Assembly (NCBI GenBank): GCA_017608305.1
Contig: JAFCGC010000006.1
Location: 1 to 33,711, forward strand
Reading direction: 5' to 3'
DNA length: 33,711 nucleotides
From: Candidatus Pacearchaeota archaeon
GTDB taxonomy: Archaea > Nanobdellota > Nanobdellia > Pacearchaeales > GW2011-AR1
Part shown: positions 547 to 32,548 of the stretch, piece after piece
How positions within the stretch are numbered: the first letter of the stretch is position 1
How the letters are laid out: each line of letters starts with the position of its first letter
Notes under the pieces: model-generated
Database searches by the model: none
What the model saw: only the letters and a program-made list of their open reading frames with translations
Told to the model about the DNA's origin: nothing
Made by a program: the position numbers and the translations under genes

Positions 547-1776
547 ATGATTGACAAAAATTTAATCAACTATATCAGCCAAAATATTAATGGAGGTTTT
601 AATATCCAATCAATTCAAAATACCTTAATCAAACGAGGGTATCCTACCAGAAATGTTTATGATACAATTAATTATGTTACAGGAACTAATCCAAACACTC
701 CACAAAAATCTCAATCTCAAAAATCTGGTAAAAAAATTTGGTTATTCATAGGAATACCTATAGGAATTCTTATTGTGGGGTTGTTAATTTTTTTATTTAT
801 GGGTTCTTCAAAAACAATTTCAGAAAATGAATTTTCTCAAGGAATAAATTTTGAGTTAAAAGAAAATAAAGAAGTAAAATTTATTCTTGATGAAGAAGAG
901 CATACTATAAAAATTAATTCTGTTAGTGGTGACACAGTAAATTTGATTATTCAAAGCAATCCCCTCCAAATCGATATTAAAATCGGAGAAGAAAAAAAAT
1001 TTGATTTAGATGACGATGGTTTTTATGATCTTAAAATTAAGTTAAAAGATATAAAACAAGGAATTCCAGAATTATACATAAAAAAAATTCATGAAAGAAT
1101 ATGCACTGAAAATTGGAATTGTGAAGATTGGAGTTCTTGTTCTGAACAAGAAAGTCAAACAAGAACTTGTACGGATTTGAATTCTTGTGGTACAATCAAA
1201 GAAAAACCTACCTCAACTCAAAGCTGTACTTATGTTGAAAATTGTGTTGAGGATTGGGATTGTGAGAATTGGAGTTCATGTGTAAACGAAAGTCAAGTAA
1301 GAGTATGTACTGATTTGAATTCTTGTGGTACAATTGAAAACAAATCTAATGAACAACAAGAGTGTGAAAATGTTGATGAATGTTTGATAGATGAAGACTG
1401 TAATGATGGGGATTTTTCTACAAAAGAGGTTTGTAGTGGAACTCCAAAAAAATGTTCACATAGTACAATGACGGAATGTATAACTGGAGATAATTACTGC
1501 CCAACAAATTGTGATTATTCAACAGATGAAGATTGTGAGTTGACAGATTCCATAAAAATTGAATGTGGAGAGAATATTTGGTGTTATCATGATAAGGTTG
1601 TGGAAACAAATGATTACACTTTGTGTTTCAATATAAATAATTATTGGAATGATGAGGATCAAGGAGTTGTGGGGTCTTGTATAGAATCTATTGCTAGAAA
1701 TCTTGATGACTGTTCCCTTTGTGAATATATTGTCAAACAGGATATCCATAATTCATGCGTACGAGATTTTTGTTAA
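547..1776 (+). CDS. Cys-rich surface protein with one membrane helix and two TSP1-like repeats
   Basis: 409 residues. Residues 1-45 form a short helical N-terminal module (LINYI.QNI..G...Q.I...LI.RGYP) of a type seen at the start of many DPANN membrane proteins. One membrane helix follows (about 64-86), then a beta-rich segment (about 95-180). Next come two thrombospondin-type-1-like repeats (about 186-228 and 233-274) with the motifs CE(D/N)WSSC and R.CTDLNSCGTI, then a Cys-rich tail. With the helix near the N terminus, most of the chain should be outside the cell. The paired cysteines suggest disulfides. A TATA-like AT stretch lies about 25 nt upstream. The gene sits between two inverted repeat copies (327-439 and 1862-1979). 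The role is unknown; adhesion or cell contact is a guess from the TSP1-like repeats. Confidence 0.85.
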   Translation: MIDKNLINYISQNINGGFNIQSIQNTLIKRGYPTRNVYDTINYVTGTNPNTPQKSQSQKSGKKIWLFIGIPIGILIVGLLIFLFMGSSKTISENEFSQGINFELKENKEVKFILDEEEHTIKINSVSGDTVNLIIQSNPLQIDIKIGEEKKFDLDDDGFYDLKIKLKDIKQGIPELYIKKIHERICTENWNCEDWSSCSEQESQTRTCTDLNSCGTIKEKPTSTQSCTYVENCVEDWDCENWSSCVNESQVRVCTDLNSCGTIENKSNEQQECENVDECLIDEDCNDGDFSTKEVCSGTPKKCSHSTMTECITGDNYCPTNCDYSTDEDCELTDSIKIECGENIWCYHDKVVETNDYTLCFNINNYWNDEDQGVVGSCIESIARNLDDCSLCEYIVKQDIHNSCVRDFC

Positions 1777-29243: not shown

Positions 29244-30105
29244 ATCAGAAAAACATATACAAATTAAAGCTTTTAGTAGTTCTATGCTGAAATTCTCGGC
29301 GAACCTTGAATATTACACAAGAACTCTATCAACGTCATCTTCTTTGACGGCTTTAGTTGTCTCGTTTTGCGGACGACTTCGAGCTTAGATGCTTTCAGCT
29401 CTTATTCGCACAATGCGTAGCTATGCAGCCTGCCAAGTGACAACTGCTCACCAGAGGCATCCGAGTCAGGTTCCTCTCGTACTACTAACTCGTTCCACTC
29501 AGACAACAACACACCTAGTAGATATCATACTAACTGTCTCACGACGTTATTAACCCAGCTAACGATTCCTTTTAATACGTGAACTCCGGCACCCTTGCAC
29601 GCTTCTGCACGCGCAGGATAGGAAGAGCCGACAGCGATGTACCAAACCGCCCCGTCAATACGAACTATCGGGGGCGACAAGCCTGTTATCCTTGGGGTAA
29701 CTTTTCTATCAGACACAGCTTCTATTAAAAAAGCATGTGGGTTCACTAGGCCCGGCTTTCGCCTCTGCATTTCTTACTGTTCAAAATACAGTCAGATAAG
29801 CTTTTGCCCTCGCACTCAACTCCAGATTTCCAAGCTGGATGAGCTTATCTTTGGGTCCTATCGATATTTTTTCGACAGGGCACCGCCCCAAAAGTCTCGA
29901 CGCTCCTACCTATGCTATGCATTTTCGATAAAATTACAACAACAAGTTGCAGTAAAGTTCCACAAGGTCTTCGCTTCCCACTAGGTGTCTCCGGCCTTTT
30001 CACCGGAAGGTATTTTCAGAAGGATCCAATTAGGGACAGTGACAACCTCGTTAAACCATTCATGCAAGTCGCAATTCATACGACAAGGTATTACGCTACC
30101 TTAAG

Positions 30106-30606
30106 CAAACTGTTACTTTCATTCTAATAATAGAATTACTAACCATCTATTGATGGCGGATTAATATTTCTATTAATCTCTATATGTTTCCATATAGATC
30201 GGACTATATCTTCACAAATTAATGTGTTTGGCGTATAGTCTCTGAGGATTCTAGAATTATTTTAAAAGATTATAGAGTCCAATACCAAGACCAATAACTC
30301 CACCTATTCCAGCTACAGTGATTGTAGCATCATAGCGAGCTTTGCTTTTTTGGAAATAGTAATTAGTCTGTTCTTTTTTTAATTTCCAGACTTCATTTAC
30401 AATTTCTCCAATTTTTTTAGTATCTTTGTTTAATTTATTTCTTTCCATAATTTTTTATTAAATTATGGTTATTTAAATCTTTTTAATTCTAGTCTTTCCT
30501 GCTGATTGTCCTTATTCTTTGGATTTTTACTGACGATAAACGCCGAGTACCAAAGACCTATCAGGAGTTTCCAGCATACAGCCAAATTTAAACACCCCCT
30601 CATTTG
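30106..30606 (-). ncRNA. Group I intron in 23S rRNA (E. coli position about 1923)
   Basis: A 501-nt insertion. Removing it joins GTAACTATGACCCT to CTTAAGGTAGCG, the normal uninterrupted sequence. P1 forms between exon ACCCT plus the first intron base C and GGGGGT (30599-30594), with the required U-G pair at the splice site. The last intron base is G. Core elements: P TGCTGGAAACTCC (30576-30564), Q AATCAGCAGGAAAG (30507-30494), R CCTCAGAGACTATACG (30247-30232) and S AAGATATAGTCC (30212-30201); R and S form P7. P6 is CTAGAATT (30492-30485) with AATTCTAG (30258-30251), and its loop contains a gene (30257-30448). Confidence 0.93.
30257..30448 (-). CDS. Small membrane-anchored protein encoded in the P6 loop of the intron
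   Basis: 63 residues. The first 40 are charged and helical (MERNKLNKDTKKIGEIVNEV, then WKLKKEQTNYYFQKSKARYD); the last 22 form one Gly-rich membrane helix (ATITVAGIGGVIGLGIGLYNLL). There is no LAGLIDADG, GIY-YIG, HNH or His-Cys box motif, so it is not a normal homing endonuclease. A TTTAAATAAC box (30479-30470) stands about 27 nt before the ATG, inside the intron, so it may have its own leaderless transcript. Its stop codon overlaps the P6 stem. Whether it aids splicing, mobility or something unrelated is unknown. Confidence 0.7.
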   Translation of the reverse strand: MERNKLNKDTKKIGEIVNEVWKLKKEQTNYYFQKSKARYDATITVAGIGGVIGLGIGLYNLLK

Positions 30607-32548
30607 AGGGTCATAGTTACCCCCGCCGTTTCACGGACCTTAGCTCCCTTGAAAAGGAGTTTGAGACACCGCGACTGGGCAGGTCTCACCAAGTATACAA
30701 GTCTTTTCAGATTAGCACTTGGCTACGTTTTTGGTAAACAGTCGGGCCGTCCTTGTTACTGAGATCTATCAATGCACTAAACTTCTAACGAAAAAAAGCA
30801 CAAGGATAGACATCCCTTCAGCCGAAGCTACAGGACTAACTTGCCGAATTCCCTTAATTGGTTTTACCTTTCATGTCTTAGCCTATTAAGCCAGGGCACC
30901 AGTGTCGGTTATGGGTACAGCTAATTAAATTCGTTAAGCAAAATGACTTTTCACTGGCTCTTGGAATCAGTAATTTTGTCAAACAGATTCATTTACATCT
31001 ATGGATTACCCTCAATAAACTTCTCTGAAAGAACACCCTTTAAGGTGCTTACTTATCCGAAAGCAAACATTTTACAAAAAACTTAATCAGTACAGGAATA
31101 TTAACCTGTTGTCCATCGTCGCACTCAGTTAAGATACGACTTAGGTGCTGACTAACCCTCGGTTAACATATATTGCCGAGGAAACCTTACCCTTACGACA
31201 TTTTCCATTCTCAGGAAAATCACATCCTACTATTACCAGGATTCTCATTACTATTCGCTCCATCCTTTCTCTCGAAAAAACTTCTGTGCAAATAGTACGC
31301 CTGCTTACCCGAACACTCATACGAGTGCCGCTAAAGTATCGGTATTATGTTTGAGCCCCGTCCATTTTCAAGGCCCTGAACCTCAATAGGTGAGCTGTTA
31401 CGCTTTCTTTAAATGATAGCTGCTTCTGGGCTTACATCCCTAGTGTCTCAGGTTCAAGACACCCTTCGATACACTTAACATAAATTTTGGGACCTTAACT
31501 TTAGTCTCCGTTGTTCCGGTCTCGGAAATGTATCTTACATACACACCCTGATTCCTGTCTTAAGCAGTTAACAGCTTCTGAGTTGGAAAAAATTCCGTAA
31601 GCATTTGCCCCTGCAAATTTTATCCGTACTTTACACCGTTAACAAACAAGACAAGACTATACGTAGGCATATTTCAGCAGGAACCAGCCATCGCCGAGTT
31701 AGATAAGCTTTTCACCCCTATTCACAGATCATCCAAGTGCATGTCCACAACACTGGTTCAGGCCTCCATCCTTCTTTCGAAAGACTTCACCTTGTCCATG
31801 AATAGATCACCCGGCTTCAGGTCTTATCCGCATGACTAAACGCGCTTTCACACTTGCTTTCGCTTTGGTTACTCAATAAAATTGATTAGCCTCGCCATAC
31901 AGAAAAACTCCCTGGCCCGTTCTTCGAAACGTACGTTACAAACCTTTCTGATAAATCAGTTAAGACTAGTAACAAACTGTAACTGCTAGATTTCAAGTCT
32001 TTTCACACTCTGCTAAGAGTACTTTTCAGCTTTCCCTCGCGGTACTAGTTCACTATCGGACTTTGGTTTTATTTAGGGTTGGCAGTTAATCCTGCCATAT
32101 TCAGACTCCCAATCCAGGAAGCCCTACTCTTTTAGAGAACACCATATCATTTTCTTCTACAGGACTATCACCTTCTAAGGTCTTGCTTTCCAGCAAAGTT
32201 TGAATCAATGACTTAGGCATTTATCTCCACCACATCTCTAATTCTCTTTCAAGAACAGATTCAGCTTGCCCTGTTCCCTTTTCGCTCTCTGCTAATAAGG
32301 GAATAACTTATTGTTTTCTTTTCCTACTGGTACTAAGATGTTTCAATTCCCAGCGTGATTCCGTCTCTCGACGCATTCAGAAATCTTGGGATCAAAGCCT
32401 GCATGCGGCTCCCCCAAGCTTATCGCAGCTTGCCACGTCTTTCATCAAAACCAAAACCAAGCTATCCGTCTAACAGTATAAAATATAGTAGTATGTTTTT
32501 TCTGAAATTACCATTCGGAAAATTAATTTAATAACTCTCCGAGTGGGA

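Follow-up and report, generated by a model that had tools for sequence, protein, structure and literature searches.

A group I intron in a Pacearchaeota 23S rRNA gene with a likely accessory gene in the place of a homing endonuclease gene

Group I introns are usually presented as ribozymes whose gene content does not go beyond a homing endonuclease or a maturase. For archaea, Nawrocki, Jones and Eddy (2018; PMC6125680) described group I introns of subtype IB4 at LSU/1923 and LSU/1931, with rRNA genes as the only hosts. Among their introns, 21/39 had a Pfam match, in every case to LAGLIDADG, and cargo other than an endonuclease was not reported there. The rRNA insertions of CPR bacteria are comparable, as group I introns with ORFs are found in the 16S and 23S genes of these reduced genomes (PMC11270868). 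Here, 99% of the Pfam-annotated ORFs in 23S insertions are homing endonucleases, and the named exception is the 23S intervening-sequence protein, but promoter-driven accessory genes are not among them (PMC11270868).

In this study, we analyzed an insertion in the 23S rRNA gene of a Candidatus Pacearchaeota archaeon (GCA_017608305.1, contig JAFCGC010000006.1); the whole stretch of 33,711 nucleotides under analysis is referred to as the window. The window intron resembles the described archaeal introns (PMC6125680) in host gene, insertion sites, long loop inserts and DPANN hosts (Woese- and Pacearchaeota), but differs in its non-endonuclease cargo, whereas those introns carry LAGLIDADG or nothing recognised. 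According to our main reading, to which we assign a probability of roughly 0.72, this is an LSU-1923 group I intron with an accessory gene, and not an endonuclease gene, in its P6a loop. The sequence itself demonstrates that the ribozyme core is intact, that the splice sites are exact, and that the intron contains an archaeal promoter of its own as well as a coding-like ORF in the endonuclease slot. Archaeal group I introns are already known; promoter-driven accessory cargo is likely new, and the open-licence literature searched contained nothing relevant on toxin-antitoxin pairs or other cargo in group I introns.

The intron and its ribozyme core

The intron comprises 501 nt, from C30606 as its first base to G30106 (omega-G) as its last. 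Its position, LSU-1923 in E. coli numbering, was assigned from the flanking helix 69/71 sequence and is a known archaeal group I intron site (PMC6125680). The predicted spliced junction, GTAACTATGACCCT followed by CTTAAGGTAGCG, is present uninterrupted in four intron-less relatives (L021, L039, L045 and L046). Using cmscan with permissive filters on a 631-nt stretch, RF00028 (Intron_gpI) matched with 37.2 bits (E=6.9e-8). The curated gathering cut-off of 50 is not reached, since the insert interrupts the model match and the 5' half is placed wrongly; some 20 sister introns score above this cut-off. An RF00028 scan of the organism's own whole genome at E<=0.001 missed the intron, and a covariance model of the 3' core, R1, was therefore built. 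R1 scores the 3' core of the window intron with 80 bits, the window itself being part of the training set.

Table 1 Features of the intron and its host gene in the window.
Feature	Position	Strand	Basis
Archaeal 23S rRNA gene (host), two exons around the intron	29253..32492	-	RF02540, 1936.9 bits, full model 1-2987
Group I intron, LSU position 1923	30106..30606	-	RF00028 E=6.9e-8, junction match, covariation
P1/P10 internal guide	30594..30611	-	Read from sequence
5' half of core (P3 5' strand, P4, P5, P5a)	30501..30583	-	Compensatory changes in P4, P5, P5a
P6a 5' arm GACTAGAATT, clamp of the cargo cassette	30485..30494	-	Common to cargo-bearing introns at other sites
TATA box TTTAAATA	30470..30477	-	Starts at -29 from the ATG
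63-aa ORF, very likely P6a-loop cargo gene, probable single-pass membrane protein	30257..30448	-	Codon usage, promoter spacing
P6a 3' arm AATTCTAGAATC	30247..30258	-	Inverted repeat of 5' arm; 15+ cargo introns with same arm
3' core (P6 3' strand, P7, P3 3' strand, P8, P9)	30178..30247	-	Model R1, P7 compensation
P9.1, P9.2 and P9.3 hairpins	30121..30178	-	Compensatory changes in 7/8 P9.1 pairs

In P1, the exon nucleotides A30611-U30607 pair with G30598-U30594 (ACCCU/GGGGU), with the wobble U30607.G30598 as splice pair, while P10, likewise read from the sequence, joins G30601-G30599 to C30105-U30103 of the 3' exon (CUU/GAG). The five G of the internal guide are invariant across eight sister introns. 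The 5' strand of P3 lies at 30583-30578, and P4 is formed by 30575-30572 and 30504-30501. Covariation was counted on the aligned core of eight LSU-1923 introns, from which the P6 insert had been removed, using a hand-drawn structure from P3 to P9.3 including the P3/P7 pseudoknot. In this structure, 95.7% of cells are paired, and two-sided compensatory changes occur in 26 of the 59 pairs, compared to 12.4+-2.4 in shuffles (0/500 reach the observed count) and at most 8 in slid controls. These include changes from U-A to G-C in P4, from C-G to U-A in P5 and from A-U to G-C in P7, as well as five pairs of P5a; P3 itself shows little variation.

Covariation, the exact exon junction and the core identify the insertion as a group I intron. 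Splicing itself is inferred, as no RNA data are available, and the assignment to subtype IB4 rests only on insertion site and relatives. The original prediction, made without database searches, had placed a group I intron with a U-G splice pair, a terminal G and a perfect exon junction at exactly this place in an archaeal 23S gene. All of these claims held, including the coordinates, on the basis of RF02540, the sequence reading, the intron-less relatives and covariation; the Rfam group I model it had named as a check scored below its gathering cut-off.

The open reading frame in the P6a loop

The 63-aa ORF is enclosed by the arms CTAGAATT (30492-30485) and AATTCTAG (30258-30251), and its stop codon overlaps the 3' arm. 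An ATG ORF of this length occurs in 1.2% of shuffled introns. Its codon log-odds score, with 111 ORFs from this genome as the training set, is 0.377 per codon, compared to 0.329+-0.161 for genes and -0.358+-0.287 for non-coding frames, only 0.2% of which exceed it; GC content by codon position agrees with that of genes as well. The distance at which the TATA box starts is the peak promoter position in this genome, where the motif is found in 22/111 genes. Since ORF length is rare in shuffles, codon usage is host-like and the TATA box is placed at this distance, the ORF very likely represents a real gene, although its expression is inferred and not supported by RNA data.

The encoded protein contains one hydrophobic stretch at residues ~41-59, with a Kyte-Doolittle value (19-residue) of 1.71 at residue 41; no dedicated membrane predictor was applied. 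A membrane helix is thus likely, but hydrophobicity is moderate. The N-terminal half is predicted as a charged, basic helix of ~40 residues, and an AlphaFold2 single-sequence model without alignment shows one long helix with a pLDDT of 83.8. Profile searches gave no match to nuclease families (LAGLIDADG or other) and no credible match in Pfam, NCBIfam, PHROGs or PADLOC. The search for homologues covered 56 relatives, 180 genomes from the order and 234 from the class, GTDB and viral contigs, phages and the PDB, and found none, so that a test for selection was impossible. Two weak matches (G068 and G081) were rejected, as both fall within longer ORFs (302 and 416 aa). The window intron does not meet the criterion of a mobile (homing) intron, an encoded endonuclease, nor that of a type II toxin-antitoxin system, the respective fold with an adjacent antitoxin: there is a single ORF without family match. 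As a best guess, the protein might be a membrane-anchored accessory protein; its exact activity can at most be inferred in the absence of functional data.

With respect to the ORF, the original prediction was correct in its location (more precisely P6a), the spacing of the TATA box and the lack of a nuclease motif; its single membrane helix holds as probable only. The homology search it suggested revealed no relative in other intron loops or in the genomes searched.

Sister introns, their cargo and the P6 cassette

Using R1, we found introns in 51/200 genomes of the order and 55/371 genomes sampled in the phylum. In a hand tally of the order's rRNA introns (~54), 16 carry LAGLIDADG, 13 no ORF and 22 a non-LAGLIDADG gene, while three remain unresolved. 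This non-LAGLIDADG cargo sits in P6, P8 or P9, loops that tolerate insertions because they are located at the edge of the catalytic core. None of ~28 introns from the rest of the phylum has such cargo. The original prediction considered cargo of this sort unusual; it is recurrent in the order, which is beyond what a single locus could reveal.

In the P8 loop of the LSU-1931 introns L090 (G067, minus strand) and L095 (G196), which belong to two genera, a ParE-type toxin is encoded together with an antitoxin that lies upstream and overlaps it, a type II pair which is missing from the window intron. The matches of the two toxins to PF05016 (3.9e-8 and 7.7e-9) both exceed the cut-off. In the same loop of two further LSU-1931 introns, L093 (G145) and L094 (G171), a NYN nuclease is encoded (4e-21 and 2.7e-10). 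For the L093 protein, there is also a match to HEC-09, a PADLOC candidate (7.7e-27). In L094, an insertion seems to interrupt the N-terminal part of the nuclease. Other introns carry a HIT-domain protein (L083; 1.3e-4, 23.0 bits at a cut-off of 21.5), a pair of a DUF4258-like and a DUF2283 protein (L096; DUF2283 2.3e-13) or one of five further membrane proteins (L040, L043, L074, L087 and L088), and L042 and L060 have cargo in P9 in addition to LAGLIDADG in P6. One of the 22, a 171-aa ORF in P6 of L084 (G060), has a PD-(D/E)XK-like motif (RPDF...VDVKYK) without a Pfam match; on this motif alone, it could be an unclassified PD-(D/E)XK-like (homing) nuclease.

Cargo families recur across genera (NYN 9e-58, toxin 1e-32, antitoxin 1e-16, two-helix protein 7e-13). 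In other genomes of the family, members of the two-helix group of L043 and L088 also occur without an intron, frequently next to tRNA or rRNA genes, and cargo therefore seems to be drawn from the local gene pool. In many genomes, the stand-alone relatives (L260-L271 and L277) adjoin tRNA, 5S, 16S, 23S or RNase P RNA genes, which points to a link between this small gene and structural RNA loci. A TATA-like element is located at -31 to -27 in 23/33 listed cargo ORFs, compared to 1.5% of other ATGs. This figure is biased upward because part of the cargo was found with a TATA filter, through which the window's own TATA box was not selected; downstream operon genes among the cargo ORFs are expected to lack their own TATA.

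The closest intron, L042, is located at LSU-1923 in another genus of the same family. Its core is 93.5% identical to that of the window, and it encodes LAGLIDADG_1 (E=2e-21) in the slot where the window intron has the 63-aa ORF, so that 'in place of a homing endonuclease', as originally predicted, held literally. Altogether, seven LAGLIDADG-bearing LSU-1923 introns (L041, L042, L047, L066, L068, L076 and L091) share with the window intron the core (79-94% identical), the P6 slot and, in most cases, a TATA-like element near -29. In contrast, all seven combine their endonuclease with P6a arms like CCAAAG/TTGGGAT, unlike the window arms around a membrane-type gene. The window arms and a near-identical promoter stretch match cargo-bearing introns at LSU-1931 and other sites, as shown by the comparison of L095 and window for the arm (GGAAAGACTAGATTTAGAAAGATTTAAATAA versus GGAAAGACTAGAATTAAAAAGATTTAAATAA) and for arm plus promoter stretch (CAGCAGGAAAGACTAGATTTAGAAAGATTTAAATAA versus CAGCAGGAAAGACTAGAATTAAAAAGATTTAAATAA).

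Because the core matches L042 while arms and promoter match LSU-1931 cargo introns, the P6 cassette was, on the simplest and likely reading, swapped between introns and did not arise by decay. This is an inference from arms and promoter, and the arms are short (~10 nt) and AT-rich DNA can yield such a promoter. A decayed endonuclease gene was rejected, as local nucleotide alignment of the insert with six LSU-1923 endonuclease genes was no better than with shuffles. For horizontal transfer, the alignment of the flanking 23S sequences was too gappy to be informative.

Several further observations were made during these searches. A pattern scan of genome contigs returned mostly bacterial group I introns, with endonucleases or nothing obvious. 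Tandem group I introns at LSU-1923 and LSU-1931 with only 8 nt of exon in between are found in L024 (G038), L090 and L092 (G116). Cargo-bearing introns are located at another LSU site (L049 in G203, near 1200-1750) and, with an 83-aa membrane protein, at an SSU site (L040 in G196). A 16S group I intron (L080 in G025) contains a tRNA gene on the opposite strand (667-738, minus strand) and a 60-aa ORF in P6. An LSU-1931 group I intron was also observed in an Asgard archaeon (L140, Candidatus Hermodarchaeum yapensis record). Finally, ten RF00028 matches (L022, L025-L028, L030, L031, L033, L035 and L038) have a 3' flank resembling a tRNA T-arm (GGTTCGAGTCC...) and, judged by the appearance of this flank, are likely group I introns in archaeal tRNA genes.

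Proposed role of the cargo and rival explanations

According to the proposed mechanism, the rRNA operon transcript would self-splice and thereby restore helix 69/71. Transcription from the intronic TATA box would separately yield a leaderless mRNA, which would not depend on rRNA processing and would be translated into a small single-pass membrane protein. The P6 cassette, consisting of arms, TATA box and ORF, was probably gained by recombination from an LSU-1931-type cargo intron. Within this lineage, small genes of host or mobile origin, such as those for membrane proteins, toxin-antitoxin pairs or the NYN nuclease, may use intron loops as docking sites. As the weakest step, the 63-aa protein would be cargo which pays for or protects the intron by being useful or addictive to the host, and not a splicing factor. 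Introns without an endonuclease may persist via such cargo, either because it benefits the host or because the host is addicted to it (as with ParE), or via homing in trans.

A bolder reading, which could as well be wrong as right, considers the rRNA group I introns of this one DPANN order as a cargo platform. Here, the P6, P8 and P9 loops would be interchangeable landing places for accessory genes under their own promoters (membrane proteins, toxin-antitoxin pairs and a nuclease matching a candidate anti-phage family), and the introns would persist through cargo rather than homing; the window intron would be one member, with a P6 cassette swapped between insertion sites.

One rival explanation accepts the intron, but considers the ORF a chance frame in AT-rich filler left after endonuclease loss. 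The lack of any homologue in the collections searched and the occurrence of ORFs of this length in shuffled introns, even if rare, speak in favor of this explanation. Nevertheless, it is unlikely given the gene-like codon usage (beating 99.8% of non-coding frames), the GC content by codon position, the TATA box at the genome peak and an insert without residual similarity to an endonuclease gene.

A toxin-like or addictive action of the 63-aa protein, by which loss of the intron would become costly, is also unlikely. In support, L090 and L095 carry ParE-type toxins with their antitoxins and L096 a DUF4258/DUF2283 pair; furthermore, short single-helix membrane peptides are a common toxin form (type I systems). 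However, neither a partner gene nor an antisense RNA is visible beside the ORF, and a charged N-terminal helix like this one is not typical of short toxins. The five other membrane cargo proteins also have different sequences and sizes. The originally proposed free-rider or addiction gene fits better than a splicing or ribosome-tethering factor, since sister introns carry ParE-type pairs, but neither role has been shown for the 63-aa protein itself.

The other original guess, a splicing or ribosome-tethering factor, has no support. More broadly, the protein might aid the intron in splicing or in tethering the rRNA operon to ribosome or membrane. Its location within the intron and its basic, helical N-terminal half would be compatible with this very unlikely role, but sister introns with near-identical cores do without the protein, and cargo differs wholly from intron to intron, which rules out a common splicing need. 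An identity of the insertion other than a group I intron, or a non-archaeal origin (an assembly chimera), is all but excluded: the RF00028 score under the gathering threshold and the missed whole-genome hit are opposed by covariation, the exact exon junction, an archaeal LSU match of 1937 bits, an archaeal RNase P on the same contig and the sister introns in 51/200 genomes of the order.

If rRNA introns routinely carry promoter-driven host-type genes, including addiction modules, this would explain without homing why introns persist in the cell's most conserved gene. In that case, rRNA introns would be a place to look for small accessory or defence genes that are skipped by annotation pipelines. 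The survival of endonuclease-less introns would also become testable with genome data by comparing cargo-bearing and empty introns within one family.
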